A DNA stretch of 64,000 bases from Antarctobacter sediminis (GTDB lineage: Bacteria; Pseudomonadota; Alphaproteobacteria; Rhodobacterales; Rhodobacteraceae), in NCBI RefSeq assembly GCF_019218285.1, contig NZ_JAHUZG010000001.1, positions 868,001 to 932,000 of the forward strand, in the 5' to 3' direction. Positions within the stretch are counted from its first letter, which is position 1. Each line of letters starts with the position of its first letter. The notes under the pieces are model-generated. The model made no database searches, was not told the origin of the DNA, and saw only the letters and a list, made by a program, of their open reading frames with translations. A program made the translations under genes and the position numbers. Shown here piece by piece: positions 39,316 to 63,485 of this stretch.

Positions 39316-40464
39316 ATGTTCTTTCGCCTGACCGGTCTTGCCGCCCTTGGCCTTGGTGCCGCCGTCTTTGTCATCGCGGCCACCGCGGGTGATCCGCCCG
39401 CACCCGCCAGCAAGGCCGCCTTGGGCGAGCTGCTGTTCCATGACACGAACCTGTCGGCCAACCGAACGCAATCCTGCGCCACCTGCCACGATCCCGGTTT
39501 TGCCTTTGCCGATCCGCGCGGCATGGCCTCGCCCGGGGACAATGGCGTGTCGCTGGGGGATCGGAACGCGCCTACGGCGATGTATGCCGCGCTGTCGCCC
39601 GCCTTTCACCGCACCGAGGACGGCAAGTGGAAAGGCGGGCAGTTCCTTGATGGCCGCGCCGCGACACTGGCCGATCAGGCCGGGGGGCCACCGCTGAACC
39701 CGATCGAGATGGGCATGCCCGACAAGCCTGCGGTTGTCGCGCGCCTGCGCGAAAACCCGGTGTACCAGACCGCCTTTCCACAGCTTTTCGGGGCCGCTGT
39801 CTGGGAGGATGCCGATACCGCCTATGCGGCCATGACGCAGGCCATCGCCGCCTTCGAGGAAACCAAGATCTTCGCGCCATTCGATTCCAAATACGACCGA
39901 TTCCTGCGCGGCGAGGCAGAACTGACCCGCGAAGAAGAGCTGGGCCGGCTTCTGTTCTTTTCCGAGCAATTCACCAACTGCAACCTCTGCCACCAGATCG
40001 GCCGCAGCCAGATGGACCCGCGCGAAACCTTTACTGATTACCTGTTCCACAACATCGGCGTGCCGGAAAACACCGCCCTGCGGGCACAGAACGGCGTCGC
40101 CCCGGGCACGGTGGACCACGGGCTGCTGGCCAATCCGCAGGTCGATGACGCGACCGAACGCGGCAAGTTCCGCACGCCCACGCTGCGCAACGTGGCCGTG
40201 ACCGGCCCTTATATGCACAACGGCGTCTTCGAAGACCTGCGCACGGTGATCCTGTTCTACAACCGCTACAACTCGCTGTCGCCGGCCCGTCAGATCAACC
40301 CTGAAACCGGCGCGCTGTTCGGCCTGCCGCAGGTGCCTGACACCTTGGCCGCCAAGGAACTGACACACGGCCCCGCGCTGGACGATGAACGCATCGACGC
40401 ACTGCTGGCCTTTCTCAGGACACTGACTGATGCCCGCTACGAACATCTCCTGCCCGGGGACTGA
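39316..40464 (+). CDS. Di-heme cytochrome c peroxidase/MauG family protein
   Basis: A 382-residue exported c-type cytochrome. The N-terminal signal is hydrophobic (about 5-24). The two heme-attachment sites are CATCH (54-58) and CNLCH (222-226). Other family features are FHDTNLS, GRAATLADQA, NPIEMGM, GKFRTPTLRNVAVTGPYMHNG with a heme ligand Met/His, and FYNRYN. Activities in the family range from H2O2 reduction to MauG-type protein oxidation; no amine dehydrogenase genes are near, so peroxidase is the simpler guess. It stands 94 bp after the MoxR gene. Confidence 0.92.
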   Translation: MFFRLTGLAALGLGAAVFVIAATAGDPPAPASKAALGELLFHDTNLSANRTQSCATCHDPGFAFADPRGMASPGDNGVSLGDRNAPTAMYAALSPAFHRTEDGKWKGGQFLDGRAATLADQAGGPPLNPIEMGMPDKPAVVARLRENPVYQTAFPQLFGAAVWEDADTAYAAMTQAIAAFEETKIFAPFDSKYDRFLRGEAELTREEELGRLLFFSEQFTNCNLCHQIGRSQMDPRETFTDYLFHNIGVPENTALRAQNGVAPGTVDHGLLANPQVDDATERGKFRTPTLRNVAVTGPYMHNGVFEDLRTVILFYNRYNSLSPARQINPETGALFGLPQVPDTLAAKELTHGPALDDERIDALLAFLRTLTDARYEHLLPGD

Positions 40465-51160: not shown

Positions 51161-51862
51161 TCATTCGATGCGGTCGAGAATTTCAGTCTCGATTTCGCCA
51201 AGGCCGTCGATCCCGCCGGTTATGACATCGCCCGGCTCGACCGCGCCGACACCCGCGGGTGTTCCGGTCATGATGATGTCTCCGGCCTCCAGCGCGATGG
51301 AATGCGACAGGATCGAAACATGTTCGCGCACAGACCAGATCAGCTCGGACAGATCAGCGTCCTGCCGGACCTCGCCGTTAACCGCCAGCCAGATACGCCC
51401 CCGGTCCAGCGCGGGCACCCGCGCCAGCGGCGTGATCGGGTTCAGCGGTGCCGAACGGTCAAAGGCCTTGCCGAAATCCCACGGACGCCCCTTGTCGCGC
51501 GCCTCCAGTTGCAGGTCGCGGCGGGTCAGGTCGATCCCCACCCCGGCGCCCCAGAGGTGATCCATCACCTCGTCCTGCGCGATGTTTCGGCCCGACTTGC
51601 CGATGTAGACCACCAGCTCGATCTCGTAGTGGAAATTCGCCGTGCCCGGCGGATAGGGCACCGGCACGCCGCTTTCCACCACCGCATCGGCGGGCTTGGT
51701 GAAAAAGAACGGCGGATCGCGATCAGGATCCTTGCCCATCTCACGCGCATGGGCGGCATAGTTGCGCCCGACGCAAAAGATGCGGCGCACCGGAAAGCGC
51801 GCGTGGCTGTCTCGCACGGCGACAGAGGCCTGCGGATGGGGCGGAAACACGTAGTCGGTCAT
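51161..51862 (-). CDS. Fumarylacetoacetate hydrolase family protein
   Basis: 233 residues of the FAH/HpcE catalytic fold. Seen: RIFCVGRNYAAHAREMG, the metal-binding FHYEIELVVYIGKSGRNI, GIDLTRRDLQLEARDKGRPWDFGKAFD and the end LEAGDIIMTGTPAGVGAVEPGD. Members hydrolyse or decarboxylate C-C bonds of acylpyruvates (gentisate and homogentisate pathways). The gene upstream is a flavin hydroxylase, so together they fit a ring-cleavage route such as gentisate breakdown, although no ring-cleaving dioxygenase is in view. ATG 51862 has AAAGGA 10 nt before it. It starts 32 nt after the monooxygenase stop. Confidence 0.92.
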   Translation of the reverse strand: MTDYVFPPHPQASVAVRDSHARFPVRRIFCVGRNYAAHAREMGKDPDRDPPFFFTKPADAVVESGVPVPYPPGTANFHYEIELVVYIGKSGRNIAQDEVMDHLWGAGVGIDLTRRDLQLEARDKGRPWDFGKAFDRSAPLNPITPLARVPALDRGRIWLAVNGEVRQDADLSELIWSVREHVSILSHSIALEAGDIIMTGTPAGVGAVEPGDVITGGIDGLGEIETEILDRIE

Positions 51863-51894
51863 CGGGGCATGTCCTTTCGGGCGGGCCTGCGCCT

Positions 51895-53082
51895 TTAACT
51901 CAGCGGCACAGTCAGCGGATCGTAGTTGTAAAGCCACTTGGCCCGGTCGGCTGCGGGATCCTTGGCGGCAAAGGCGTCACGGAACTCTTGGTGCGTGTCG
52001 AAATGGAACAGCCTGGCGTGTTCGGTGGATTCATCGACGATGCGCGCAGTACGGTCGAGGCGCGCCGCCTCGTAGGCCCTGAGCGCGCCGGGCAGCGTTT
52101 CGATCTCGTCCAGCGCGCGGCACAGCACGGCGCCGTCCTCGATCGCCATGACCGCGCCCTGCGCCATGTAGGGCAGCGTGGGATGTGCGCTGTCGCCCAG
52201 CAGCGTCACCCGGTCGGTGGACCAGAAAGGCAGCCGCGGCCGGTTGTTCAGCGCCCAGCAGAAACAGGCATCGCGGTCGGCGGCATCAATCATGGTCTGC
52301 ACGTCGGGATGGAAGCCCTCAAAATCCTTCTTGAGGTCCTCCCAGGGCGCCTTGACGGTCCAGCCCTCCTGCGTCCAGTCGGGCTTTTCCACGCAACCGA
52401 CGAAATTCAGCAGCCGGCCCTGATTGACCCAGTAAACCACCATATGCTTGCCCGGCCCCATCCAGTTGATGAACACCTTGTCCATGAACTGCGCCGGCAG
52501 GCGGTCGGCGGGCACCATGACGCGCCATGCGACATTGCCGGTGAAATTCGCCGGTTCCGCGCCGTGCATCTGGGCGCGCACGACGGATTTGATCCCGTCC
52601 GCGCCGATCAGCACATCGCCCCGCTGGCTTGGGCCATCGGCGAAATGCAGCGTCACGCCCTCGGCGTCCTCCTCGTAGGCGGTGGCCGAGGCATTGAGCG
52701 TGATTGCCCCGGGATCGAGTTCCCGCACGCGGGCCTCCAGCACCCGGTGAATATCGGGGCGATAGACGTGGTAATAGGGCGCGCCGAACTTCTCTTCATG
52801 CGCCTTGCCCAGCGGGATCGTGGCGACGACCTCGGCGGTGTCATGCAGGCGCAGCTCGGTACGCTTGGGATGCACGGCCAGCTCGGCCAGAGCCTCCAGA
52901 ACGCCGATGTGGCGCAGGACCTTGGTGGCATTGGCACTGACCTGAATACCCGCGCCGACCTCGCCCAGTTCGGGGGCCTGCTCAAAGATCCGCACCTCAT
53001 GGCCCGCCTGCAACAGGCAGGCCGCCGCAGTCAGGCCACCCAGACCGGCGCCGGCGATGAGGATTTTCTTTTTCGGTGTCAC
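51895..53082 (-). CDS. FAD-dependent aromatic monooxygenase (3-hydroxybenzoate 6-hydroxylase-like)
   Basis: 395 residues from GTG 53082. Seen: ILIAGAGLGGLTAAACLLQAG for FAD, VLIGADGIKSVVR (DG motif), VTLLGDSAHPTLPYMAQG (GD motif), and NVAWRVMVPADRLP as in the 3-hydroxybenzoate/salicylate hydroxylase group. GGAGG lies 5 nt before the GTG, which is why I prefer it to the ATG at 53094. The likely product is a dihydroxy aromatic such as gentisate, passed to downstream steps with the FAH-family enzyme. A copy of the ATTGT-NN-AACA motif overlaps the region just upstream (53096-53108). Confidence 0.9.
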   Translation of the reverse strand: MTPKKKILIAGAGLGGLTAAACLLQAGHEVRIFEQAPELGEVGAGIQVSANATKVLRHIGVLEALAELAVHPKRTELRLHDTAEVVATIPLGKAHEEKFGAPYYHVYRPDIHRVLEARVRELDPGAITLNASATAYEEDAEGVTLHFADGPSQRGDVLIGADGIKSVVRAQMHGAEPANFTGNVAWRVMVPADRLPAQFMDKVFINWMGPGKHMVVYWVNQGRLLNFVGCVEKPDWTQEGWTVKAPWEDLKKDFEGFHPDVQTMIDAADRDACFCWALNNRPRLPFWSTDRVTLLGDSAHPTLPYMAQGAVMAIEDGAVLCRALDEIETLPGALRAYEAARLDRTARIVDESTEHARLFHFDTHQEFRDAFAAKDPAADRAKWLYNYDPLTVPLS

Positions 53083-53095
53083 GGGAGCCTCCATA

Positions 53096-53108
53096 ATTGT
53101 TGTACAAT
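53096..53108 (-). promoter_or_regulatory. Candidate GntR operator 1 (before the monooxygenase gene)
   Basis: The minus strand reads ATTGT-AC-AACA-AT. The core TTGTACAA is a perfect palindrome. It lies 14 bp before the GTG start, where a bound repressor would block expression. Confidence 0.55.
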
Positions 53109-53264
53109 ACTTGTCGAAGGCGGAAGGTTCGGTCAAATCCCGGTGGCATAAATTGCTTTTGCCAGAAAGGCTTGCAGAAAGGTTCCGTTACCGCCCGACA
53201 TTGGGCAAAGTGGTACAGCCCCGGTGGCCAACACCGGGGCAAGAAAACCGACAGACAGAGGAGG

Positions 53265-54851
53265 TCAGGGCGTGGCCGACTCTCGGTTCCAGACCCCGAA
53301 CCAGATCCCATCCGCGCCGTCCTGCTCATCCAGCAAGGCCATCAATCCTGCATCCGACAGGGTCGTGGCGCGCTTTAGACCCAAGGCCCAGGTAAGCAGA
53401 TGTCCACGCAGCTCCTCGACGACGCCATCGGGCGGTGTTGCGCCGAGGTCGTTCAACTCTTGCGGATCGGCCACGAGATCGAACAGCATCGGACGGAATG
53501 GCGGCGCGAACATCGCCTTCCAGCGCCCGGTGCGCACCATGTACAGACGACTGGCGCGCAGCCCGAGGTCCAGTTCCGCGCCCGCCGGTTTTTGAATGAA
53601 ATCATACTCGCTGAACACGGCCCGGCGCCATTGGTCCGGTGCCCGCCCATGCAGAAACGGCAACAGCGAGCGCCCCTCGAACACATGCGCCGCAGGTGTC
53701 CCGCCCGCCCATTCGACAAAGCTCGGCGCAAGGTCGATGGCCTCGACCAACGCATCACATACGGTGCCGCGCGTCCCGTCCGCCTCGGGCGAGGGATCGA
53801 CGACGATCAGCGGCACCTTGGCCGAAGGATCGTGGAACAGATCCTTTTCCCCAAGCCAGTGATCCCCAAGATAATCACCATGGTCCGAACAAAAGACGAT
53901 CATCGTCTGGTCCAGCTTGCCCGCGTTCCGCAGATAGGCCACCAACCGACCCACTTCATCGTCGATCTGCCTGATCAGACCCATGTAGGTGGCAATCGCC
54001 TCGGGCCGGGCCCGATCATCGGAATAGCAAAGCGATTCCTTGTGCCGCATAAAGGCCGCATAGACCGGGTGCGGATCGGCACGCTCGGCATCTGAGCGCA
54101 CGGGCAGCAGGATATCCGCCGCGCCGAACATGTCGTGATAGGGCGGCGGCGCAATCAGCGGCCAGTGCGGCTTGATAAAGGAACAGTGCAGCAACCACGG
54201 ATCATCGCCCGCCTGCTCGATGAACTCGATGCTGCGGTCGACGATATAGGGCGTTTCGCCCTCTTCCGGCCGGATGGCGGCAGGCTGCGTGGCGTTTTCA
54301 AGAAACCAGCCAGACCGGATCTCTCCCTTCGGGCCGCGCCCGCTGTTGGCATTGTCGTGCCACGGATTGTCCGACCCATAGCCGCGTTCCGCAAGAAAGC
54401 GGTTGTAGGGCTGGTCGGGCTTGGGCGTCGGATACAGCCCGTCATGGCGATCCCAGACGTCAAAGCCGCATTCCGACACCCGCGCGCCGATCACGCTGTT
54501 GGGGTCAATGCCCAGCCGCTGCATCCCCTCTACATCGGCCCGCATATGCGTCTTGCCACACAGAACCGCCTGCATCCCAAGCGGACGCAAGTGATCGCCC
54601 AGCGTCCGCTCTCCGACATTGAGTGGGAAATCATTGCCCAGCGACCCATGGGTCGAGGGATAGCGCCCGGTGTAATAACTCATCCGCGACGGACCGCAGA
54701 TCGGCGATTGAACATAGGCATTGGTGAACCGCACGCCACGCGCGGCCAGCGCGTCGATATTCGGGGTCTGCAAAGTCGGGTGACCGGCGCAGGACAGGTA
54801 ATCGAACCGCAACTGGTCACACATGATCCACAGGATATTGCGACGGGTCAT
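53265..54851 (-). CDS. Sulfatase (formylglycine type), cytoplasmic
   Basis: 528 residues of the alkaline phosphatase/sulfatase superfamily. The active-site motif is CGPSR at Cys52 (SPICGPSRMSYYTGRYP), the C-x-P-S-R form converted to formylglycine. Metal ligands are visible in NILWIMCDQLRFD and CSDHGDYLGDH. There is no signal peptide, so it should work in the cytoplasm on an imported sulfate ester or related phosphonate/phosphate ester. An FGE would be needed; the exported FGE-like protein at 48068 is an unlikely partner. Its ATG overlaps the upstream gene's stop (ATGA), coupling it to the AssT-family gene. Confidence 0.93.
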   Translation of the reverse strand: MTRRNILWIMCDQLRFDYLSCAGHPTLQTPNIDALAARGVRFTNAYVQSPICGPSRMSYYTGRYPSTHGSLGNDFPLNVGERTLGDHLRPLGMQAVLCGKTHMRADVEGMQRLGIDPNSVIGARVSECGFDVWDRHDGLYPTPKPDQPYNRFLAERGYGSDNPWHDNANSGRGPKGEIRSGWFLENATQPAAIRPEEGETPYIVDRSIEFIEQAGDDPWLLHCSFIKPHWPLIAPPPYHDMFGAADILLPVRSDAERADPHPVYAAFMRHKESLCYSDDRARPEAIATYMGLIRQIDDEVGRLVAYLRNAGKLDQTMIVFCSDHGDYLGDHWLGEKDLFHDPSAKVPLIVVDPSPEADGTRGTVCDALVEAIDLAPSFVEWAGGTPAAHVFEGRSLLPFLHGRAPDQWRRAVFSEYDFIQKPAGAELDLGLRASRLYMVRTGRWKAMFAPPFRPMLFDLVADPQELNDLGATPPDGVVEELRGHLLTWALGLKRATTLSDAGLMALLDEQDGADGIWFGVWNRESATP

Positions 54852-56524
54852 ACCACGCCCCCTGCATGTAACTCATTGCCCGGCAATTCACGCACCCCGC
54901 TGTCGGGCGCATAAAGAGAAGGCGTACGGAGTCCGCCAAAAACCTCCCACTGCATGATCTCATGCGGGTCTTCGATCACCACGTCGAACAGGATTTCCGG
55001 TTCGTCCGTCCGGGTATACTCAAGGATCCGCGCGCTCGAGGCAAAATCATCCGGGTGACGGATCGCCGGGTTGTTTTCGTCATAGCTCATGTCGTCGCGG
55101 TCCGGCATGCAGATCGAGTGGATGACCAGCATGGTATCGCTTTCCTCCAGCCGGTGCGCGTCCCCCATGGCCCAGGTGCGCTCTTTCACGGCACTGTCGT
55201 CGCGGGCAGAGGTCCAGACCTCGCGCACAGTCATCGCCTCTTCGTCGACAAGGTATTCGACCCCCCGGCTAAAGGTCTCGTGCGGGGCTTTTGGCGGGGT
55301 GAAGGGCCGCGCCCCAAGGATGCCGTTGTCGAACATGACAATGGTGCCATCAGAGGTCACCCGCGGGTTATGCCCGTGCCAGGGCCAGCGGAACCCCTCC
55401 CCCTGCGGCGTCAGCAGCTTGGCCTGCAATTCCGGCGACCAGTCGCTGTGATCGCCAAGGATCCATTTGATCTGCCCGCTTTTGCGGTCGATCTTGAACA
55501 GCGCATCCTGAAGCCGCAGCGAGACGATCACGCTGTCGTCGCGCTCGTCATAGCAAACGCCGTTGCCGTGGGTCCAATCGCCGTGCTCGGGAAAACCACG
55601 CACATGCCAATAGGCTTCAAGTGCGTTGTAACCGATGCGGTTGATGTCGAGATGGTCAAAGGCGTCCCAACTCCAGACGATCTCTCCTTCGCGGGTGAAC
55701 TCAAGAATCCTGTCGCCGACGATCCACTTGTCGGCGCGCGGCGCGTCGGGGTCGAACTCTGACGTGTACCAATCCTTTGCCAGCCGCGCATTGCCGGACA
55801 AGGCAAGGAAATTGCCGTTGGGCATCTGGTGGGGCTGGTGATGCAGGGTCTGCACCGGGATCGGAATCGCCCCGGGCGCCGGTCCCGCGGGCCGGTCACG
55901 GGCGAACCATTGCGCCTGTACGCGCCCCAGCATGTCGATCTCGGACGAATGCGAGTCCGCATTGTGATAAAACAGGTTGCCCGATTGCAGACGCTGAATG
56001 CCCGCCACGCGGCGCGGCAACTGATGGCGCCAGCAGACGCGGCCCTGTGCATCCAGCGCGATTAGCATGGACCAGTCCAGCATGAAGGACCGTTGACGGT
56101 CGGTCAGGTCGCGCGGCCGCCCGATGGCACGACGACGCACGGCCAGAATGGTATATCCGGGAGCCATGCGAGCCGGATCAGAGGCGCGCACCTCGATCGG
56201 CGGAAAATCCCGCTTGTCCACCGGCAGGGGTTCAGGATCAAAAACCAGCGGTTCGGGATGGGTCACGGCGCGCCCCTTTGCGTCGATCACCTGCACGGTG
56301 ATGGTCGCGGGCGCATCCGCACGCAAGCCCAGAACCGGAAACCCTTCAGCAAAGGCGCCGGGATCGGAAAAGACCAACGTCCGCGCCTCTGATCCCTGCT
56401 CGACCAGCAGCCGCACCTCGGCATGGCCCGACGCCCGCAGCAAGACCACCGCCACCTGCGCCGTGGCGGCAGAGGTCGCGGGAGTGATGACCGGATTTTC
56501 CAGAAATGCGATTGCGTCTGCCAC
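54848..56524 (-). CDS. Arylsulfotransferase (ASST) family protein, no signal peptide
   Basis: 558 residues. The beta-propeller of ASST enzymes is recognised by YTILAVRRRAIG, LPRRVAGIQRLQSGNLFYHNAD, HHQPHQMPNGNFLALSGNARLAKDW, DWTHGNGVCYDERDDSVIVSLRLQDALFKIDRKSGQIKWILGDHSDW and WHGHNPRVTSDGTIVMFDNG. Family members move sulfate between phenols through a His intermediate. E. coli AssT is periplasmic; this one begins MADAIAFLENPVITP with no export signal. It is the first gene of a unit with the sulfatase. An operator-like motif (56554-56565) lies 30 bp upstream. Confidence 0.88.
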   Translation of the reverse strand: MADAIAFLENPVITPATSAATAQVAVVLLRASGHAEVRLLVEQGSEARTLVFSDPGAFAEGFPVLGLRADAPATITVQVIDAKGRAVTHPEPLVFDPEPLPVDKRDFPPIEVRASDPARMAPGYTILAVRRRAIGRPRDLTDRQRSFMLDWSMLIALDAQGRVCWRHQLPRRVAGIQRLQSGNLFYHNADSHSSEIDMLGRVQAQWFARDRPAGPAPGAIPIPVQTLHHQPHQMPNGNFLALSGNARLAKDWYTSEFDPDAPRADKWIVGDRILEFTREGEIVWSWDAFDHLDINRIGYNALEAYWHVRGFPEHGDWTHGNGVCYDERDDSVIVSLRLQDALFKIDRKSGQIKWILGDHSDWSPELQAKLLTPQGEGFRWPWHGHNPRVTSDGTIVMFDNGILGARPFTPPKAPHETFSRGVEYLVDEEAMTVREVWTSARDDSAVKERTWAMGDAHRLEESDTMLVIHSICMPDRDDMSYDENNPAIRHPDDFASSARILEYTRTDEPEILFDVVIEDPHEIMQWEVFGGLRTPSLYAPDSGVRELPGNELHAGGVV

Positions 56525-56553
56525 CTTGGGGTCTCCTTTGACTCCTCACCCTA

Positions 56554-56565
56554 TTGTTCAACAGT
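56554..56565 (+). promoter_or_regulatory. Candidate GntR operator 2 (before the AssT-family gene)
   Basis: ATTGT-TC-AACA-G, 30 bp upstream of the leftward AssT-family start. Confidence 0.55.
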
Positions 56566-56598
56566 CTGAGCGAAAACCTCTGACACGGCAATGGGTGA

Positions 56599-56614
56599 GT
56601 TCTTGCGCAAGAAC
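56599..56614. promoter_or_regulatory. 16-bp perfect palindrome in the divergent control region
   Basis: GTTCTTGC-GCAAGAAC is a perfect palindrome, overlapped on its right by a second dyad AAGAA-CGCA-TTCTT (56609-56622). It lies between the AssT-family and TAXI-TRAP starts and differs from the ATTGT-NN-AACA motif, so it may serve another regulator. Confidence 0.45.
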
Positions 56615-56685
56615 GCATTCTTATTTTTGTTATAAGACCAACCAATCCTCTATAAAGTTGACACAAGCCCTCTGCGCCAACAAGA

Positions 56686-56697
56686 ATTGTAGAACAT
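56686..56697 (+). promoter_or_regulatory. Candidate GntR operator 3 (before the TAXI-TRAP genes)
   Basis: ATTGT-AG-AACA-T, 53 bp upstream of the rightward binding-protein start and downstream of a TTGACA-like hexamer (56658-56663). Confidence 0.5.
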
Positions 56698-56749
56698 AAA
56701 CACAACTGCACGCCCCGTGTGCGGACCCAAAATAAGCGGAGGTCACCTC

Positions 56750-57745
56750 ATGTTGAAACAGATTGCAACGGCCGCATTTCTTGGCGCGCTGACGATTGGC
56801 GCAGCTTCGGCGGAAACGGTGCGGGCGCATACAACCGCCGCCGGATCAGCCCCGAACACGGTCATCAAGCTGCTGTCGCGCTATGCCGGAGAGGCGGGGG
56901 TAACGGTACAGGTTGCCGAAGGTCAGGTCATGACCCGGTCCATGTTCGTCGTCGCCGCCGGCAAAGCCGAGGTGATGTCTGCCATCGTCGGCCAATATGC
57001 CCGCCTCCAAGACGGCACCGGCCCGTTCAAGGATATGTCGCAACAGGCGCAAGAGGCCTCGACCCACCTGCGGTCGGTCATGTCCTTCCCCGTGGGCGCC
57101 CTGCACGCGCTGACATGGGAGGGCAACGGCATCACCAGCTTTGCCGACGTGGCGGGCAAGCGTGTCTACACCGGCCCCGGGGGCGGCGGCGCATCGGTCG
57201 ACAACGAAGAAATGATCGAACTGCTGACCGGACTGAAGGCAGGAAAAGACTACGAGGCTTCACGGATGCCGTGGCGCGAAGGCATGCAGGCGATGCGCGA
57301 CGGACAGGTGGACGTGATGTTCCGCGTCGCCCCCATCGGCTCGGCCATCATCCAGGAATTCGGCCTGTCGAAAAAGATCCGCTTTCTTGGCTTCACCGAT
57401 GAGGACCTCAAGGACGCGCATTTCGCCGAACATATGGACGTGCCCGGCCGCGTGGCGCTCAAGCTGGAGCCCGGCACCTACGAGGGGCAGGTCAACACCG
57501 ACCCGGTCGGCATTGGCGCATTTCTGGGGGCCATCGCGCTCAGCGACAAGGTCAGCGATGACACGGCCTACAAACTGACCAAGGCCTTTTGGGAGAACTT
57601 CGATGCGATCCGCGACTCGGCGATCTTTTTGAAGTCGGTCGATCCGCAGGCCCCGTTTGAAGGCCTGAACATCCCGCTGCACCCGGGCGCCATCCGCTAC
57701 TACGAAGAGGCCGGCATCGCCATTCCGGACGCCCTGCGCCCGTAA
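56750..57745 (+). CDS. TAXI-type TRAP transporter solute-binding protein
   Basis: 331 residues of the TAXI (NMT1-like) binding-protein family. A signal peptide of about 21 residues (MLKQIATAAFLGALTIGAASA) precedes the mature protein. Typical TAXI elements are AAGSAPNTVIKLLSRYAGEAG, GKRVYTGPGGGGASVDNEEMIELLTG and RVAPIGSAIIQEFG. It is distinct from the DctP family at 20.5 kb. It delivers an organic acid to the fused permease 86 bp downstream. ATG 56750 follows GGAGGTCACC, an excellent ribosome site. Confidence 0.93.
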   Translation: MLKQIATAAFLGALTIGAASAETVRAHTTAAGSAPNTVIKLLSRYAGEAGVTVQVAEGQVMTRSMFVVAAGKAEVMSAIVGQYARLQDGTGPFKDMSQQAQEASTHLRSVMSFPVGALHALTWEGNGITSFADVAGKRVYTGPGGGGASVDNEEMIELLTGLKAGKDYEASRMPWREGMQAMRDGQVDVMFRVAPIGSAIIQEFGLSKKIRFLGFTDEDLKDAHFAEHMDVPGRVALKLEPGTYEGQVNTDPVGIGAFLGAIALSDKVSDDTAYKLTKAFWENFDAIRDSAIFLKSVDPQAPFEGLNIPLHPGAIRYYEEAGIAIPDALRP

Positions 57746-57831
57746 ACACCGCCTGCCACACTCCGCGCGCATCGCCGCGCGGAGCCCCTCCCCCTGTAGC
57801 GCCCGACCGCCCGGTCCGGCAGGAGCTCCCC

Positions 57832-59775
57832 ATGTCCGAACGCCCCGCATTTTATGGCCGGATGACCACGGCCGGCCTTGTGGTCGGCTTTGCCATCGCC
57901 ACCGCCGGGATCCTGAATGCCTTTCCCAGCCTATTCGGCCTGCCCACCCCCGGCCCCTATCCGCCGATCATCCTGCGCCCGGCGATCTTTTTCGCCTGCG
58001 TGCTGATCTTTGTCCTGACGAAACCCTGGGCCGCCGAACTGGAACCCAGGCTGGGCACCACCGGCCGCGCCATCGGCGCCGCGGCGGATCTGGCTGTTCT
58101 GGCGATGATGGCGCTGGCCTGCTGGCGGTTCTACGAAGTCATGTCCATCCTCGACCAGACGCTGTATTTCTTCAGCACTGGCGACGCATGGATTGCCACG
58201 GGCGCCGCGCTGTCCATCGTCTACCTGTGCTGGCGCGCATGGGGCGCACCGCTGGCCATTGTCGCGCTGACGCTGCTGATCTTTTTCTTCACCAGTGACC
58301 ACTGGCCCGGCTTTCTGAACCGCGTTCCGCCGGATTTCACCGAAGGCGCCAGCACGACACTTTGGTTCGGCCTTGCTTCGGGCATCCTCGGCTCGATCAC
58401 GGCAACGATGATCCTGACAGTTTTTGTGTTCATCGTTTTCGGCCAGATGCTGGAAGGCACAGGCGCGGGCATGTCGCTGATCCGCGTGGCCTTTCGCCTG
58501 ACCCGCCACCTCAAGGGCGGTCCGGCCCATGCGGCCATCGTATCATCGGGCCTGTTCGGCACCATGTCGGGCAACGCTGTGGCCAACGTGGTGGGGACCG
58601 GCGTTCTGACCATCCCGATGATGAAAAAGAACGGCTTTCCACCGCATTTCGCCGGCGCGGTCGAGGCCACTTCTTCCAGCGCCGGGCAGATCATGCCGCC
58701 GGTCATGGGCGCCGCCGCGCTGGTGCTGGCGGATTTCGTGGGTGAGACCTATCTGACCGTGATCACCGCCGCGCTGATCCCCGCCCTGCTCTATTACCTC
58801 AGCCTGTTCAGCGCCGTCGTCTTCGAGGCACGCAAGCTGAACATCGGACGGTCGCCCGAACTGTCGAAAGAGATGGAGATGGAGCGGCAGGACATCCTGA
58901 ACCTCGCCATGGTCTTTGTGCCGGTCTTCGTCATGATCCTGTGCCTAAAGCTCGGCATGTCGGCCGCGGGCGGCGGGATCTTTGCCCTGCTGTCCAACGC
59001 GATCCTCAGCTTTATTAATCCCGAAATCCGCAAAGAGCCGATGAAGCTGGTCAAATCCTTCGCCTCGGGCGGCGTGGCCTTTGCCCATATGATGATGGCG
59101 GTTGGCGTGATCGGCATCGTGGTCAGCGTGCTGGGCGCAACCGGACTGCCAACGGATTTCGCCAATATGGTCAGCCGGATCGCGGACGGCGCGTTGTTCT
59201 GGACGCTTCTTGCAGCCATGGCGGCGGCGTTGGTTCTGGGCATGGGAATGCCCACCCTGCCCGCCTACCTGACCATCGCACTGATCCTTGGGCCCACCCT
59301 GCGCCAGTTCGGGCTGAGCGATCTCTCGCTGCATCTTTTCGTGCTGTACTACGGGGTTGCCTCGTCGATCACGCCGCCGGTGGCGATCACGGCCTATGCC
59401 GCGGCGGCGATTGCCAAATCCCCACCGCTCAAGACCTCGATCTATGCCTATCGCGTCGGATTGGTGAAATTCATCGTGCCTTTCGTCTTTGTCTACAACC
59501 CGGTTTTGCTGCTGGTGGACGAAGGCGGCTTTGACACCACAGAGTTGATCACCGTCTTGTTCCGCACAGTTCTGGCGATCTTTCTGCTGTCATCCTCGCT
59601 GGCCGGGTTTGACCGGATGCGCCTGCACCCCGCCGAAATCGCACTGCGCGTGGCCACGGCGCTGGGATGCCTCTGGACGGTGCCGATGATCCACTGGGGC
59701 GCGACGGCGATCGGGCTGGCGATTTTCGCAATCCACTGGATGCGCGCACGTCAGCCAGAGGCCGAAAACGCCTGA
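57832..59775 (+). CDS. TRAP transporter fused permease (DctQM), TAXI system
   Basis: 647 residues joining the small (DctQ) and large (DctM) membrane subunits in one chain, usual for TAXI systems. The first four or so helices (to about 155) are the DctQ part. The remainder has the DctM signatures SSGLFGTMSGNAVANVVGTG, VEATSSSAGQIMPPVMGAAA, GMGMPTLPAYLTIALI and YYGVASSITPPVAITAYAAAAIA. It takes up the substrate presented by the TAXI protein. AGGAGCTCCCC precedes the ATG. It converges on the GntR gene with only 10 bp between stops. Confidence 0.94.
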   Translation: MSERPAFYGRMTTAGLVVGFAIATAGILNAFPSLFGLPTPGPYPPIILRPAIFFACVLIFVLTKPWAAELEPRLGTTGRAIGAAADLAVLAMMALACWRFYEVMSILDQTLYFFSTGDAWIATGAALSIVYLCWRAWGAPLAIVALTLLIFFFTSDHWPGFLNRVPPDFTEGASTTLWFGLASGILGSITATMILTVFVFIVFGQMLEGTGAGMSLIRVAFRLTRHLKGGPAHAAIVSSGLFGTMSGNAVANVVGTGVLTIPMMKKNGFPPHFAGAVEATSSSAGQIMPPVMGAAALVLADFVGETYLTVITAALIPALLYYLSLFSAVVFEARKLNIGRSPELSKEMEMERQDILNLAMVFVPVFVMILCLKLGMSAAGGGIFALLSNAILSFINPEIRKEPMKLVKSFASGGVAFAHMMMAVGVIGIVVSVLGATGLPTDFANMVSRIADGALFWTLLAAMAAALVLGMGMPTLPAYLTIALILGPTLRQFGLSDLSLHLFVLYYGVASSITPPVAITAYAAAAIAKSPPLKTSIYAYRVGLVKFIVPFVFVYNPVLLLVDEGGFDTTELITVLFRTVLAIFLLSSSLAGFDRMRLHPAEIALRVATALGCLWTVPMIHWGATAIGLAIFAIHWMRARQPEAENA

Positions 59776-59785
59776 CAAGCACAGC

Positions 59786-60457
59786 TCAGGCGTCGCCCTG
59801 CGGCGCCTGAGCCTGACGTAGAAGCTGGCGATATTCCTGCCGCACCGTTTCGATATGCGTCTGCATCAAAAGGCTGGTCAGCCGCGCATCGCGCAACTCC
59901 AGCGCCTCGATGATCTTGCGGTGATAGTCGATGGAAACGTCGGAATTGGTCGACCGCCCGAACTTGATGAACATGGCCACCGGCACCTCGACGAGGTTCT
60001 CGACGATATCGTACAGCCGCGGATTGCCGTTGCAGCGGTGGATCGCGGTGTGAAAGCGGGTGTTGTGCTCGAAGTAGACACTGTCGTCATGCGCCGTGCC
60101 GCCGAAATAATCCGCTTCCAACGCAGACTGAATCGCCTTGATCTCGGCCAGCCGTTCGTCGGTCATACGTTCGGCCGCAAGCCCGGCGCTGTAGCTTTCG
60201 ATCATCGCCTGCACGTCGAACATCTGTTCCAGCGTGGCGGCATCTATGTCGATCACATGCGAGCGCTTGTTCTCGCCGATTTCGATCAACCCCTCGCTGA
60301 CCAGTTGGCGCATGGCCTGCCGGATCGGCGTACGGCTGACCCCATAGGCAGCGGCCAGCTGCTCTTCGCGCAAGGCATCGCCGGGGCGGAACTCCCCCTT
60401 GAGGATCGCGGTTTTCAAAAGCGTGTAGGCCTGGGCGTGGGCGGTGACGTCACTCAT
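59786..60457 (-). CDS. GntR-family (FCD/FadR-type) transcription regulator
   Basis: 223 residues: winged helix at about 12-70 (LREEQLAAAYGVSRTPIRQAMRQLVSEGLIEI) and an FCD ligand domain (about 75-210) with metal/acid-binding residues (DVQAMIESYSAGLAAERM, FHTAIHRCNGNPRLYDIVENL). FCD regulators bind carboxylic acids and release TTGT/ACA-type palindromes. It lies between the transport and dehydrogenase genes and is the only regulator in the cluster, so it is the likely reader of the ATTGT-NN-AACA sites. Nearest ribosome site is AAGGACA, some 13 nt from ATG 60457, so the start is not certain. Confidence 0.92.
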   Translation of the reverse strand: MSDVTAHAQAYTLLKTAILKGEFRPGDALREEQLAAAYGVSRTPIRQAMRQLVSEGLIEIGENKRSHVIDIDAATLEQMFDVQAMIESYSAGLAAERMTDERLAEIKAIQSALEADYFGGTAHDDSVYFEHNTRFHTAIHRCNGNPRLYDIVENLVEVPVAMFIKFGRSTNSDVSIDYHRKIIEALELRDARLTSLLMQTHIETVRQEYRQLLRQAQAPQGDA

Positions 60458-60487
60458 GGGCGCTATTCTTGTCCTTGGGGCTGTTCA

Positions 60488-60955
60488 TCAGTGGGCGTCA
60501 GGCAAGCGTGACGGGATCCGCCCGCCGGCCTTCAGGATTTCTATGATATTGCCAAAGGGATCGCGACAGTAAATCGCCCGCGCACCGCCCGGAACCTGTG
60601 TCAGAACCCCGTCCCGACGGCCTCCCGCCTCGAGAATCGCCTCGACAACCGCCTCTGGCGTGTCGGTTTCGATACCGATGTGACGCAACCCCCTGTCAGC
60701 AGCGGTTCGCGCCGAAGGGTCCGCATCCGAAGCCGGTGCGCTGTACTCAAACAGTTCCAACAGGCCGCAAGGCCCTTCCATCATCGCTGTCCTGGCAGAT
60801 GTACCGCTCAGGCCGGTGATCCCCTCGAACAACGGCGAAGGCGCGGCCCACCCGCCCTCGAACAAGTCATGAAATCGCAGCGCCCGCGCATAGAAACGCC
60901 GGGCAGCATCCAGATCCGGGACCACAAGCCCGATGTGATGAAAGCGCATAAGCAT
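60488..60955 (-). CDS. VOC/glyoxalase family protein
   Basis: 155 residues of the vicinal-oxygen-chelate fold: MRFHHIGLVVPDLDAARRFYARAL at the start, GLRHIGIETDTPEAVVEAILEAGGRR in the middle, and YCRDPFGNIIEILKAGG at the end, with His/Glu metal ligands in the usual places. Functions range from glyoxalase to ring-cleaving dioxygenase or epimerase. In this cluster it may act on an aromatic or acyl intermediate. Start at 60955, or 60949 (MRFHH); neither has a strong ribosome site. It is read in the same direction as gntR and 30 bp from it. Confidence 0.88.
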   Translation of the reverse strand: MLMRFHHIGLVVPDLDAARRFYARALRFHDLFEGGWAAPSPLFEGITGLSGTSARTAMMEGPCGLLELFEYSAPASDADPSARTAADRGLRHIGIETDTPEAVVEAILEAGGRRDGVLTQVPGGARAIYCRDPFGNIIEILKAGGRIPSRLPDAH

Positions 60956-61046
60956 GACTAACTGTAGACCAAAAGTACCCAGAACTGGAAGCGGAAAAGG
61001 TTGACCGCCTCATTTTTGCTCGTCATTCATAGTTTCAGCTTTCAAA

Positions 61047-61058
61047 ATTGTTCAACAA
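61047..61058 (+). promoter_or_regulatory. Candidate GntR operator 4 (before the dehydrogenase genes)
   Basis: ATTGT-TC-AACA-A, 12 bp before the GTG start of the E2 gene; TTGTT-C-AACAA is a perfect 5-bp-arm palindrome. The strongest of the four copies. Confidence 0.6.
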
Positions 61059-61069
61059 AAGAGGCCGCC

Positions 61070-62476
61070 GTGGGTATCCGATATCTCGAGGTTCCGAAAT
61101 GGGGACTGTCCATGGAAGAAGGGACAGTCGTGGCCTGGCTGATCGCGCCGGGCGCTGCATTCTCCGAAGGGGACGAGATCTGCGAGATCGAGACCTCGAA
61201 AATCACCAATGTGGTCGAAGCGCCGTTTGACGGTGTATTGCGCAAGGTGCTGGCCGAACCGGGAGAGACCCTGCCGGTCGGCGCGCCGATCGCGATTTCC
61301 GCCAGTGAGGACGTATGCGACGCCGAGATCGAGGCCGCAGGCGGCGCACCTTCCACGCCCCAGGTTGAAACACCCGCCGCCGCCGAAGCCGCGCCTCCCT
61401 CCGCCGCACCGGCACCGCAAACCGCCAGCAAGACCCCGACCTCATCGACGATCCCCGAACCGCTGAAGGGCGTCACATCAGCGGACGTGGTCGCGACCCC
61501 TTCGGCCCGCGCGCTGGCGCAGCAGCATGGAATCGATCTGGGCAAGGTGCCGGCCACCGGGCGCGGCAACCGCGTTTCGGTTTCGGACATCCTGACCGCT
61601 GTCGAGACGGCAGGCGGCCAGATGACGGCGGACATCGCCGAAGTCGCCGCACTGCGCGCCTCTCCGCTGGCCCGTCGAGTCGCCGGACAGAAAGGCATCG
61701 ATCTTGGGCAGGTCACGCCCAGCGGTGCCAAGGGCAAGATCCTGCTTGCCGATGTCGAACAGGCGGCGCAGCCCGCCCCGGCCCCGGCCCCACAAGCCGC
61801 CTATCGCGACATTCCGATGACCGGGATGCGCAAGACCATCGCCGAACGGCTGACAGCCTCGGCGCGCGACATCCCTCATTTCCGGTTGAGTTCGGACATC
61901 CGGCTGGACGCGCTGCTGGCGCTGCGCAAACAGCTCAACGAAAGCGCGCCGAAAAAGATCAGCGTGACCGACATGCTGGTCAAGGCGGCCTCAAAGGCCT
62001 TGATCGCCGTGCCTGGCTGCAACGTGCAGGTTCTGGACGGCGCGATCCGCCAGTTCGATCAGACCGACATTTGCCTTGCGGTGGCGCTGGACGGCGGCCT
62101 TTTGACCCCGAAGGTCAGCGGCGTGGACAGCTTGTCGCTGTCGGCGGTCGCACAGGAAACCGCCGCGCTGATCGAGGCGGCGCGCGCAGGCACCCTGCAA
62201 CCGGATCAGTTCACCGGCGGCACTTTCACGATCTCGAACCTCGGGATGTATGGCGTCGACCAGTTCGACGCGATCATCAACCCGCCGCAAGGCGCGATCC
62301 TTGCCGTGGGCGCAGGCCGCACCGAAGGCCACGGCTATCGTCACGGCGACGGCCCGGCCACGGTGATGACTGTCACCCTGTCCTGCGATCACCGCGCCAT
62401 CGACGGCGCGCTTGGCGCGCAATGGCTGCAAGCCTTCCGCGCCGCCGTCGAAACCCCCATGCAAATCCTGCTCTGA
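61070..62476 (+). CDS. 2-Oxoacid/acetoin dehydrogenase E2 (lipoyl acyltransferase) with two E3/E1-binding domains
   Basis: 468 residues from GTG 61070 (AGAGG upstream). In order: a lipoyl domain (about 1-78, lipoyl Lys44 in IETSKITN), an Ala/Pro linker, a peripheral subunit-binding domain (142-176, ATPSARALAQQHGIDLGKV), a second similar domain (197-231, ASPLARRVAGQKGIDLGQV), another linker, and the acyltransferase core with HRAIDG (His441, Asp445). Two binding domains are unusual; most E2 have one. It holds E1 and E3 and transfers the acyl group to CoA. E1 genes follow at once; E3 is not yet seen. Confidence 0.93.
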   Translation: MGIRYLEVPKWGLSMEEGTVVAWLIAPGAAFSEGDEICEIETSKITNVVEAPFDGVLRKVLAEPGETLPVGAPIAISASEDVCDAEIEAAGGAPSTPQVETPAAAEAAPPSAAPAPQTASKTPTSSTIPEPLKGVTSADVVATPSARALAQQHGIDLGKVPATGRGNRVSVSDILTAVETAGGQMTADIAEVAALRASPLARRVAGQKGIDLGQVTPSGAKGKILLADVEQAAQPAPAPAPQAAYRDIPMTGMRKTIAERLTASARDIPHFRLSSDIRLDALLALRKQLNESAPKKISVTDMLVKAASKALIAVPGCNVQVLDGAIRQFDQTDICLAVALDGGLLTPKVSGVDSLSLSAVAQETAALIEAARAGTLQPDQFTGGTFTISNLGMYGVDQFDAIINPPQGAILAVGAGRTEGHGYRHGDGPATVMTVTLSCDHRAIDGALGAQWLQAFRAAVETPMQILL

Positions 62477-62492: not shown

Positions 62493-63485
62493 ATGGCCAA
62501 GACCCCCAAAACAGAGACCCCGCTGCCCGGCGCAAACACCCTTGTCACCGCCTATCGCAAGATGCGCGAGATCCGCGATTTCGAAACCCGGATTTCCAAG
62601 GAATTCGCCGCTGGCACGGTGCCCGGCATGACCCACCTTTACATCGGCCAAGAGGCCGTCGCGGTGGGCGTGTGCAGTCACCTCGACGATAACGACAACA
62701 TTGCTTCTACCCACCGTGGCCACGGACACTGCATCGCCAAGGGCTGTGACCTGACCGGCATGGCGCTGGAACTGTTCCGCAAGGAGGGCGGGCTGTGCAA
62801 GGGCAAAGGCGGGTCGATGCATATCGCCGATGTGTCCAAGGGGATGCTGGGCGCCAATGCCATCGTCGGCGGCGCGGCCCCTCTGGCGCTTGGCGCTGCG
62901 CTGGCGGCCAAGACGCGCGGCAACGGCGCGGTGGCGGTGGCCTTTGCCGGGGACGGCGCCACCAATCAGGGCACCACCTTCGAGGCAATGAACATGGCCG
63001 TGGTGCTGAAACTGCCGCTGATCTTTGCCGTTGAAAACAATGGCTACGGCGAACATACAACGCTGGAATACGCTGTCGGCGCGGATCTGACAGAACGCAC
63101 GCAGGGCTTTGGCATTCCTTCGGTCAAGGTGGACGGCACCGATTTCTTTGCCGTGCATGCCGCCATGGCCGAAGCGGTGGAACGCGGACGACGTGGCGGC
63201 GGCCCCTCGGCGATCGAGGCAGTGGCACAGCGCTGGCACGGCCATTTCGAAGGCGACGCCCAGGCCTATCGCGACAAGGCCGAGATCGCCGCGCTGCGCG
63301 AAACCGCCGACCCTCTCAAGAAATTCCGCGAGCGCGTGCTGGCCGAAAACCTCCTGACCGCCGAGACGCTGGACCAGATCGACGAGGATGTCGCCACGGC
63401 GGTGGATGCCGCCGTCGAGACCGCGCTTGCCGCTCCGCAACCGGCGCTCTCTGAGCTCCTGACCGACGTCTACGTCAGTTACTGA
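62493..63485 (+). CDS. Thiamin-diphosphate dehydrogenase E1 alpha subunit (PDH/acetoin type)
   Basis: 330 residues. The TPP-binding motif runs from GDGATNQG to FAVENN, about 30 residues as expected. MTHLYIGQEAVAVGVCSHL and the lid THRGHGHCIAKG, GKGGSMHIAD are the typical loops of the PDH-E1-alpha/AcoA family. Together with E1 beta it decarboxylates a 2-oxoacid or cleaves acetoin and passes the acyl group to the lipoyl arm. The order E2-E1alpha-E1beta is less usual than alpha-beta-E2. It begins 16 nt after the E2 stop with CGGAG upstream. Confidence 0.94.
   Translation: MAKTPKTETPLPGANTLVTAYRKMREIRDFETRISKEFAAGTVPGMTHLYIGQEAVAVGVCSHLDDNDNIASTHRGHGHCIAKGCDLTGMALELFRKEGGLCKGKGGSMHIADVSKGMLGANAIVGGAAPLALGAALAAKTRGNGAVAVAFAGDGATNQGTTFEAMNMAVVLKLPLIFAVENNGYGEHTTLEYAVGADLTERTQGFGIPSVKVDGTDFFAVHAAMAEAVERGRRGGGPSAIEAVAQRWHGHFEGDAQAYRDKAEIAALRETADPLKKFRERVLAENLLTAETLDQIDEDVATAVDAAVETALAAPQPALSELLTDVYVSY

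Follow-up and report, generated by a model that had tools for sequence, protein, structure and literature searches.

A shared palindrome upstream of four operons points to a local GntR regulon in Antarctobacter sediminis

Near one end of a 64,000-nucleotide stretch of Antarctobacter sediminis DNA, genes for an AssT-like arylsulfotransferase, a sulfatase, an FAD monooxygenase, an FAH-family hydrolase, a TAXI-TRAP transporter, and a 2-oxoacid/acetoin-type dehydrogenase surround a gene for an FCD-type GntR regulator, raising the question of whether these loosely associated neighbors belong to one regulon. The whole stretch, which we call the window, covers C1:868001-932000 (contig C1) of a 5.12-Mb genome. 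An initial annotation had noted four copies of ATTGT-NN-AACA before four operons of the cluster and proposed that they define a regulon of this GntR protein. Considering the computed sites, their position before genes, and their recurrence with the regulator, we infer that the GntR protein very probably binds a palindrome, WTGTWSWACAW, before the four operons and before at least one and probably two targets beyond the window, and that it most likely represses them until an effector binds.

Candidate operators in the window and genome

Four matches to ATTGT-NN-AACA (ATTGTNNAACA) occur in the window, one on the minus strand (53098-53108) and three on the plus strand (56553-56563, 56686-56696, and 61047-61057), exactly in front of the operons that the initial annotation had named. 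Shuffles led us to expect 0.15 matches, and none of 100 shuffles reached four. The candidate operators and the genes of the regulator operon are as follows:

53096-53108, candidate operator 1, ATTGTTGTACAAT, immediately before the monooxygenase-FAH operon
56553-56565, candidate operator 2, ATTGTTCAACAGT, before the AssT-sulfatase operon (minus strand), 29 bp ahead of the start codon of AssT
56686-56698, candidate operator 3, ATTGTAGAACATA, before the TAXI-TRAP operon, with a two-base overlap with the -10 element of a promoter-like site
61047-61059, candidate operator 4, ATTGTTCAACAAA, between the diverging VOC-GntR (minus strand) and E2-E1 (plus strand) units
59786-60457, minus strand, FCD-type GntR regulator of 223 amino acids, recognition helix SRTPIRQAMRQL
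60488-60955, minus strand, VOC/glyoxalase-fold protein, likely in one operon with the GntR gene

The identity of the regulator was confirmed by matches to both the GntR winged helix (PF00392; 68.6 bits, cutoff 27) and the FCD domain (PF07729; 79.2 bits, cutoff 24.3). The VOC-GntR gene pair is divergent from E2-E1, and operator 4 probably mediates autoregulation as well as control of E2-E1. Operators 1 and 4 adjoin the ribosome-binding region, and the promoter-like site near operator 3 reads TTGACA-18-AAGAAT (56658-56687).

Across the genome, ATTGTNNAACA had 22 matches (backwards control, 2), the looser TTGTWSAACA had 46 matches at 42 places (control, 24 matches), and the symmetric TTGTWSWACAW had 21 hits at 15 places (control, 26 hits) and so did not exceed its control. 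Because the bare motif is not rare and its symmetric form is not above control, the regulon claim rests on position rather than on counts. Four of the 15 TTGTWSWACAW places lie in the cluster, all upstream of genes, and the remaining 11 all lie in coding sequence (Fisher test, 7e-4), as judged by a codon-score classifier for nine and by frame reading for two. For the looser forms, matches elsewhere in the genome were mostly coding among those classed (30 of the 46 TTGTWSAACA hits and all 22 ATTGTNNAACA hits, a few with indecisive codon scores). The initial annotation had proposed a genome count of TTGTWSAACA as a check, with many equal matches speaking against the regulon. Such matches do exist for the loose pattern, at 38 further places, and we rejected TTGTWSAACA as a definition of the regulon; judged by position, the full palindrome holds.

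Several individual candidates were also set aside. In the window, TTGTWSAACA has six matches at five places, and the additional place (40253-40262) was rejected as an operator because it represents LFYN codons in a long coding-like frame, which by eye resembles a di-heme cytochrome c peroxidase. The matches at C1:955381 and C1:956435 (from 87 kb onward in the window frame) spell FYN codons of coding frames, C2:310683 coincides with a gene start (MFYK), and C2:716330 sits within a 263-amino-acid frame. Searching with a 13-mer and three allowed mismatches was uninformative (9 found, 8.1 expected).

Recurrence of the motif with the regulator

Aligned, the sites form an ATTGT-WSW-ACAAT-like palindrome with the core TGTWSWACA and A/T flanks, matching the A/T-rich GT-N2/3-AC type of operator expected of FCD-type regulators. 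The repeat described in the initial annotation as an imperfect palindrome, TTGT-W-S-AACA, stands, but its form was one-sided, with AACA being a single-strand view of WACA in a wider core. Although TGT-WSW-ACA is present in 25 of 25 candidate sites, these were selected by that core, and independent support therefore comes from a de novo scan in which 960 palindromes (64 half-sites by 15 gaps) were counted in non-coding DNA and in dinucleotide shuffles. TGT-N3-ACA ranked first of 960 in our cluster (8 observed and 0.48 expected; P = 4.9e-8, uncorrected for 960 tests), in the pooled clusters of the five other genomes with the regulator subfamily described below (G880, G887, G886, G885, and G881; 19 and 4.02; P = 5.6e-8, likewise uncorrected), and in G880 and G887 alone (12 and 2.81; P = 3.9e-5, uncorrected). 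The palindrome ranked second in the other genomes, TGT-N0-ACA, is contained in TGTACAACA. Our own contig was masked by hand-set gene coordinates, since greedy frame picking gives antisense frames in this GC-rich contig. For the remaining genomes, we manually removed 19 frames (G880, 4; G887, 4; G886, 7; G885, 2; G881, 2), counted the first 45 bases of each frame as non-coding, and masked four genes by hand-set coordinates. The frequent matches in coding sequence genome-wide would suit the idea that A/T-rich promoter DNA yields such words by chance, but the dinucleotide-preserving shuffles, the de novo scan, and the clusters in other genomes make chance a very improbable explanation.

A search for AssT relatives in one genome collection gave 34 loci, mostly from records labeled as alphaproteobacterial metagenome-assembled genomes, with AssT identities of 44 to 56% except for L135 (31%). 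Viral contigs contained none, the relatives in plasmids were all distant, and 389 further genomes of the order gave no match at E ≤ 1e-60. In the DNA examined, 29 of the 34 loci carry one or more other relatives of the cluster proteins, in a gene-content comparison that left out E1 alpha: a class IV aminotransferase is present at 13, and other relatives include VOC, iron alcohol dehydrogenase, aldehyde dehydrogenase, E1 beta, E2, and Tct or TAXI-TRAP proteins. A GntR relative (39 to 40% identical) is present at three loci (L121, L130, and L133) and a LysR relative (40 to 49%) at 13; neither was seen at 16 loci.

The motif tracked the GntR protein among these loci. Cores read as non-coding were found at all three AssT loci with GntR and at none of the 13 with LysR (Fisher test, 0.0018); at two of the LysR loci a core lies inside a long frame. 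We counted two non-coding cores at L121 (before the GntR-AssT pair), three at L130, two at L133, two at L131, and one at L127. Two of the three core-bearing loci without GntR in their flanks (L110, L127, and L131) have the regulator elsewhere in the genome, and the subfamily GntR was in none of the genomes of four loci without a core (L103, L108, L113, and L132). A core at L124, called intergenic by script, was rejected since it sits in a TctC-like frame common to L122 and L126. The initial annotation had held that a lack of conservation in related clusters would speak against a regulon; the motif instead recurs in distant genomes together with regulators of this subfamily.

These loci also bear on whether another regulator binds the motif, either the LysR protein encoded at the far end of the cluster (C1:946156-947079; L054 156-1079) or an FCD paralogue (C1:1434770; 33% identical). 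The LysR relatives at AssT loci mark that protein as part of the gene set. However, none of the LysR loci has a non-coding core, five loci with cores (L121, L127, L130, L131, and L133) have no match to that LysR in the DNA examined, and the motif is GntR shaped: as described in the main text of a study of FadR-subfamily operators (PMC4494728), the consensus is GT-N3-AC with TKGT/ACMA boxes. We consider binding by another regulator unlikely, and the motif shape, the recurrence with the regulator, and the behavior of the LysR loci together support the GntR regulon proposed in the initial annotation, with binding by the GntR protein predicted from sequence. As a separate observation, the LysR relatives raise the possibility that our cluster answers to two regulators.

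Two clusters found after the motif was fixed provide further support. Contig C15 of G880 holds 4 of 18 WTGTWSWACAW places of its genome (0.27 expected; P = 1.8e-4), and contig C36 of G887 holds 6 of 22 (0.32 expected; P = 1.2e-6), three of them flanking a second GntR copy. G886 (3 of 26; 0.25 expected; P = 2e-3) and G885 (2 of 20, one coding) had contributed in part to defining the motif. The stretches in these Poisson calculations were chosen for holding GntR and AssT, the value for our own cluster is circular, and 18 of 56 kb was read for G885 and about 28 of 32 kb for G886. C15 of G880 also holds GntR, AssT, sulfatase, monooxygenase, ring-cleavage, FAH, and E2-E1 genes. In G880 and G887, respectively, identities to our proteins are 55% and 53% for the monooxygenase, 57% and 56% for FAH, and 76% and 77% for E1 beta; E2, aldehyde dehydrogenases, an aminotransferase, sulfatases, AssT, and gentisate-dioxygenase-like and isomerase genes accompany them.

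A GntR profile searched in 11 genomes defined the regulator subfamily (E below 1e-75) in six: our own, G880 (L127), G881 (L131), G885 (L121), G886 (L130), and G887 (L133, two copies), four of which supplied profile rows and hence match by construction. G882 (L132) had a single match at 1.4e-35, and G879 (L110), G883 (L113), G884 (L103), and G888 (L108) had none at 1e-30. In 293 genomes of the order of G887, only G887 itself was found at E ≤ 1e-50. A single GntR query gave no relative in a genome-contig collection, and its plasmid matches were all below 60% identity, the best being 36% among the matches listed. The recognition helix reads SRTPxRQA in all seven subfamily regulators and SRTPxREA or RDA in all 17 next-best relatives, which were drawn from 385 genomes of the class at E values between 1e-42 and 1e-52. 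A core lies within 1.5 kb of four of the seven subfamily regulators (our own, both of G887, and that of G885) and of none of the 17 (Fisher test, 0.003), for which 0.36 cores were expected; 29 weaker FCD loci had three (0.78 expected). The Gln versus Glu/Asp difference is a suggested single-residue correlate of operator choice.

Several observations weigh against assigning the motif to this regulator. Bare counts of WTGTWSWACAW are close to those of the backwards control in most genomes (ours, 21 and 15; G881, 34 and 31; G885, 20 and 20; G886, 26 and 22). The other two genomes with the subfamily gave 18 and 12 (G880) and 22 and 8 (G887), and those without it gave 10 and 15 (G879), 25 and 19 (G882), 7 and 7 (G883), 15 and 13 (G884), and 15 and 9 (G888). 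The motif flanks were chosen partly on L121, L130, L131, and L133, and the profile search covered our own genome plus the genomes of 10 AssT loci, which were picked from the 34 with motif hits in view. The frame picker places L130 9795 and the two sites each of L131 and L133 in frames; we read them as upstream because homology begins further downstream. At L110, one of the 16 loci without either regulator, a core was called intergenic in a genome that gave no GntR match, although this site is also covered by a short, 105-amino-acid frame. Promoter-like sites are not above shuffles (2 found, 1.9 expected). In 148 other genomes of the family (E ≤ 1e-20, with scoring of up to 19 candidates in each), no GntR relative exceeded 36% identity, and five congeners had no match at E ≤ 1e-40, so conservation rests on a few distant genomes at about 40% identity. 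The subfamily regulators of G880, G881, and G886 have no core within 1.5 kb (the nearest in G880 is about 12 kb away on the same contig), which makes the missing cores near the 17 other regulators a weak contrast. Finally, the seven regulators are not independent: G881 is closely related to G886, and one genome contributes two copies.

Reach of the regulon and its likely substrate

The regulon probably extends past the window to at least one and probably two further targets. AATGTAGAACAAAA at C1:935289 (window frame 67289) lies between a minus-strand class IV aminotransferase gene and a plus-strand gene for an aldehyde dehydrogenase, whose best model is phenylacetaldehyde dehydrogenase at a score below cutoff. 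TGTTCCACA, TGTACGACA, and TGTAGTACA precede a TctC gene (C1:940578-940660), with an exact core fit only in TGTAGTACA. In the same region (L053 12578-12661, or C1:940578-940661) we observed three TGT-N3-ACA words, two of which form an inverted pair, TTTTGTACGACAGTTT ... AAACTGTAGTACAAAA.

Under the proposed mechanism, the GntR protein would bind WTGTWSWACAW before the monooxygenase-FAH and AssT-sulfatase operons, the TAXI-TRAP operon, and the VOC-GntR/E2-E1 divergon, would also bind before the aminotransferase and aldehyde dehydrogenase genes and probably before TctC, and would most likely repress these operons, its own gene included. A pathway intermediate binding to the FCD domain may then release repression. 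The regulated genes look suited to importing a sulfated aromatic compound and removing its sulfate, oxidizing a side chain, hydroxylating the ring, and feeding a gentisate route. The remaining genes of the cluster in the window are as follows:

51161-51865, minus strand, FAH-family hydrolase, 56 to 57% identical to its counterparts in the G887 and G880 clusters, below cutoff on every NCBIfam model
51895-53094, minus strand, FAD monooxygenase, best NCBIfam model 3-hydroxybenzoate 6-monooxygenase, actual start possibly GTG 53082
53265-54851, minus strand, type I sulfatase (PF00884)
54848-56524, minus strand, AssT-like arylsulfotransferase (PF05935)
56750-57745, plus strand, TAXI solute-binding protein of a TRAP transporter
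57832-59775, plus strand, fused TRAP permease
61070-62476, plus strand, E2 of a 2-oxoacid/acetoin-type dehydrogenase
62493-63485, plus strand, E1 alpha of this dehydrogenase
from 63513, E1 beta of this dehydrogenase, running past the window end

The sulfatase translation contains CGPSR, and the formylglycine motif of type I sulfatases is C-x-P-S-R. In AssT, H319, N321, R337, and H385 align to H356, N358, R374, and H436 of the solved AssT, which we take to be its catalytic residues, and all are conserved. The monooxygenase scored 293 bits on the 3-hydroxybenzoate 6-monooxygenase model, below the cutoff of 459 though this was its best model. Together, the gene content suggests uptake (TAXI-TRAP and Tct), sulfate transfer or removal (AssT and sulfatase), aldehyde or alcohol oxidation, hydroxylation, and FAH hydrolysis. 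Since the related clusters add gentisate-type ring-cleavage genes, the substrate class is likely to be sulfated aromatics broken down via gentisate.

No ring-cleaving enzymes are encoded in the cluster of the window. A dioxygenase of our genome (32% identical to that of L133) lies on contig C5 (L172, approximately 145.4 to 149.4 kb) with neighbors that are isomerase-like and FAH-like by eye, and no TGTWSWACA core was found at this group. The L133 dioxygenase has gentisate 1,2-dioxygenase as its best model (269 bits, cutoff 442), and the L133 isomerase scored 263.5 bits on the maleylacetoacetate isomerase model (cutoff 171) and passed no maleylpyruvate model cutoff. With the dioxygenase below its cutoff and the isomerase passing a maleylacetoacetate model, gentisate is the likely rather than the established substrate of ring cleavage. 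Two further features of related loci were noted by eye. A membrane protein of 1,056 to 1,075 amino acids with a spermidine-synthase-like part is encoded beside TonB receptors at L130 (3855-7082), G880 (C15:13917-17141), and G887 (C36:32847-36017), and G880 C15:23286-25004, in the regulon cluster, encodes a tannase/feruloyl-esterase-like protein, a possible sign of an aromatic acid ester.

The operators could also be real and the regulon nevertheless serve at least two separate substrates under one regulator, for instance desulfation through AssT on the one hand and 3-hydroxybenzoate on the other. LysR-bearing AssT loci have no monooxygenase or FAH match in the flanks examined (up to 10 kb), so the AssT/aminotransferase/E2-E1 module is separable from the gentisate module. 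In three genomes (ours, G880, and G887), however, both modules occur in motif-bearing clusters, and we regard separate substrates as improbable, if the most serious of the alternatives. We tentatively propose, with somewhat less than even confidence, an undescribed route for a sulfated aromatic, perhaps one with an amino or ester group. The compound would be taken up, desulfated by AssT and sulfatase, trimmed by the aldehyde dehydrogenases, aminotransferase, and acetoin-type dehydrogenase, and mineralized via gentisate, and a single FCD GntR whose recognition helix carries a Gln may have taken its operator along with the pathway between Alpha- and Gammaproteobacteria. Read as one regulon, the loosely associated neighbor genes become a testable unit that reaches past the window and suggests how sulfated aromatics might be degraded.

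Comparison with known systems

No published description of this gene cluster was recognized in our literature searches. As a local FCD-GntR regulon, the predicted system is ordinary in kind and well supported by comparison, and its content appears new as far as the literature was searched. With the 3-hydroxybenzoate gentisate pathway it shares the monooxygenase and FAH in the window, and the dioxygenase, isomerase, and FAH genes are linked in G887 and G880; our own genome differs in that its dioxygenase group stands apart on C5 without the core. The cluster AssT retains the four aligned active-site residues of the AssT arylsulfate sulfotransferase (3elq) but differs from it in having no signal peptide by eye and in being embedded in a catabolic cluster. 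Among regulators, the closest named model is phnR_burk (TIGR03338), on which our protein scored 101.3 bits, short of the PhnR membership cutoff of 271.5, and the regulator of PDB 7xp0 is also among the closest by sequence (73.5 bits). FadR-subfamily regulons, as presented in the main text of Suvorova et al. 2015 (PMC4494728), differ in their targets, with gentisate, sulfatase, sulfotransferase, and aromatic absent from that text, but they share with our cluster the domain makeup of the regulator, the TKGT/ACMA palindrome with three nucleotides between GT and AC, and a site in a divergon with the regulator gene.

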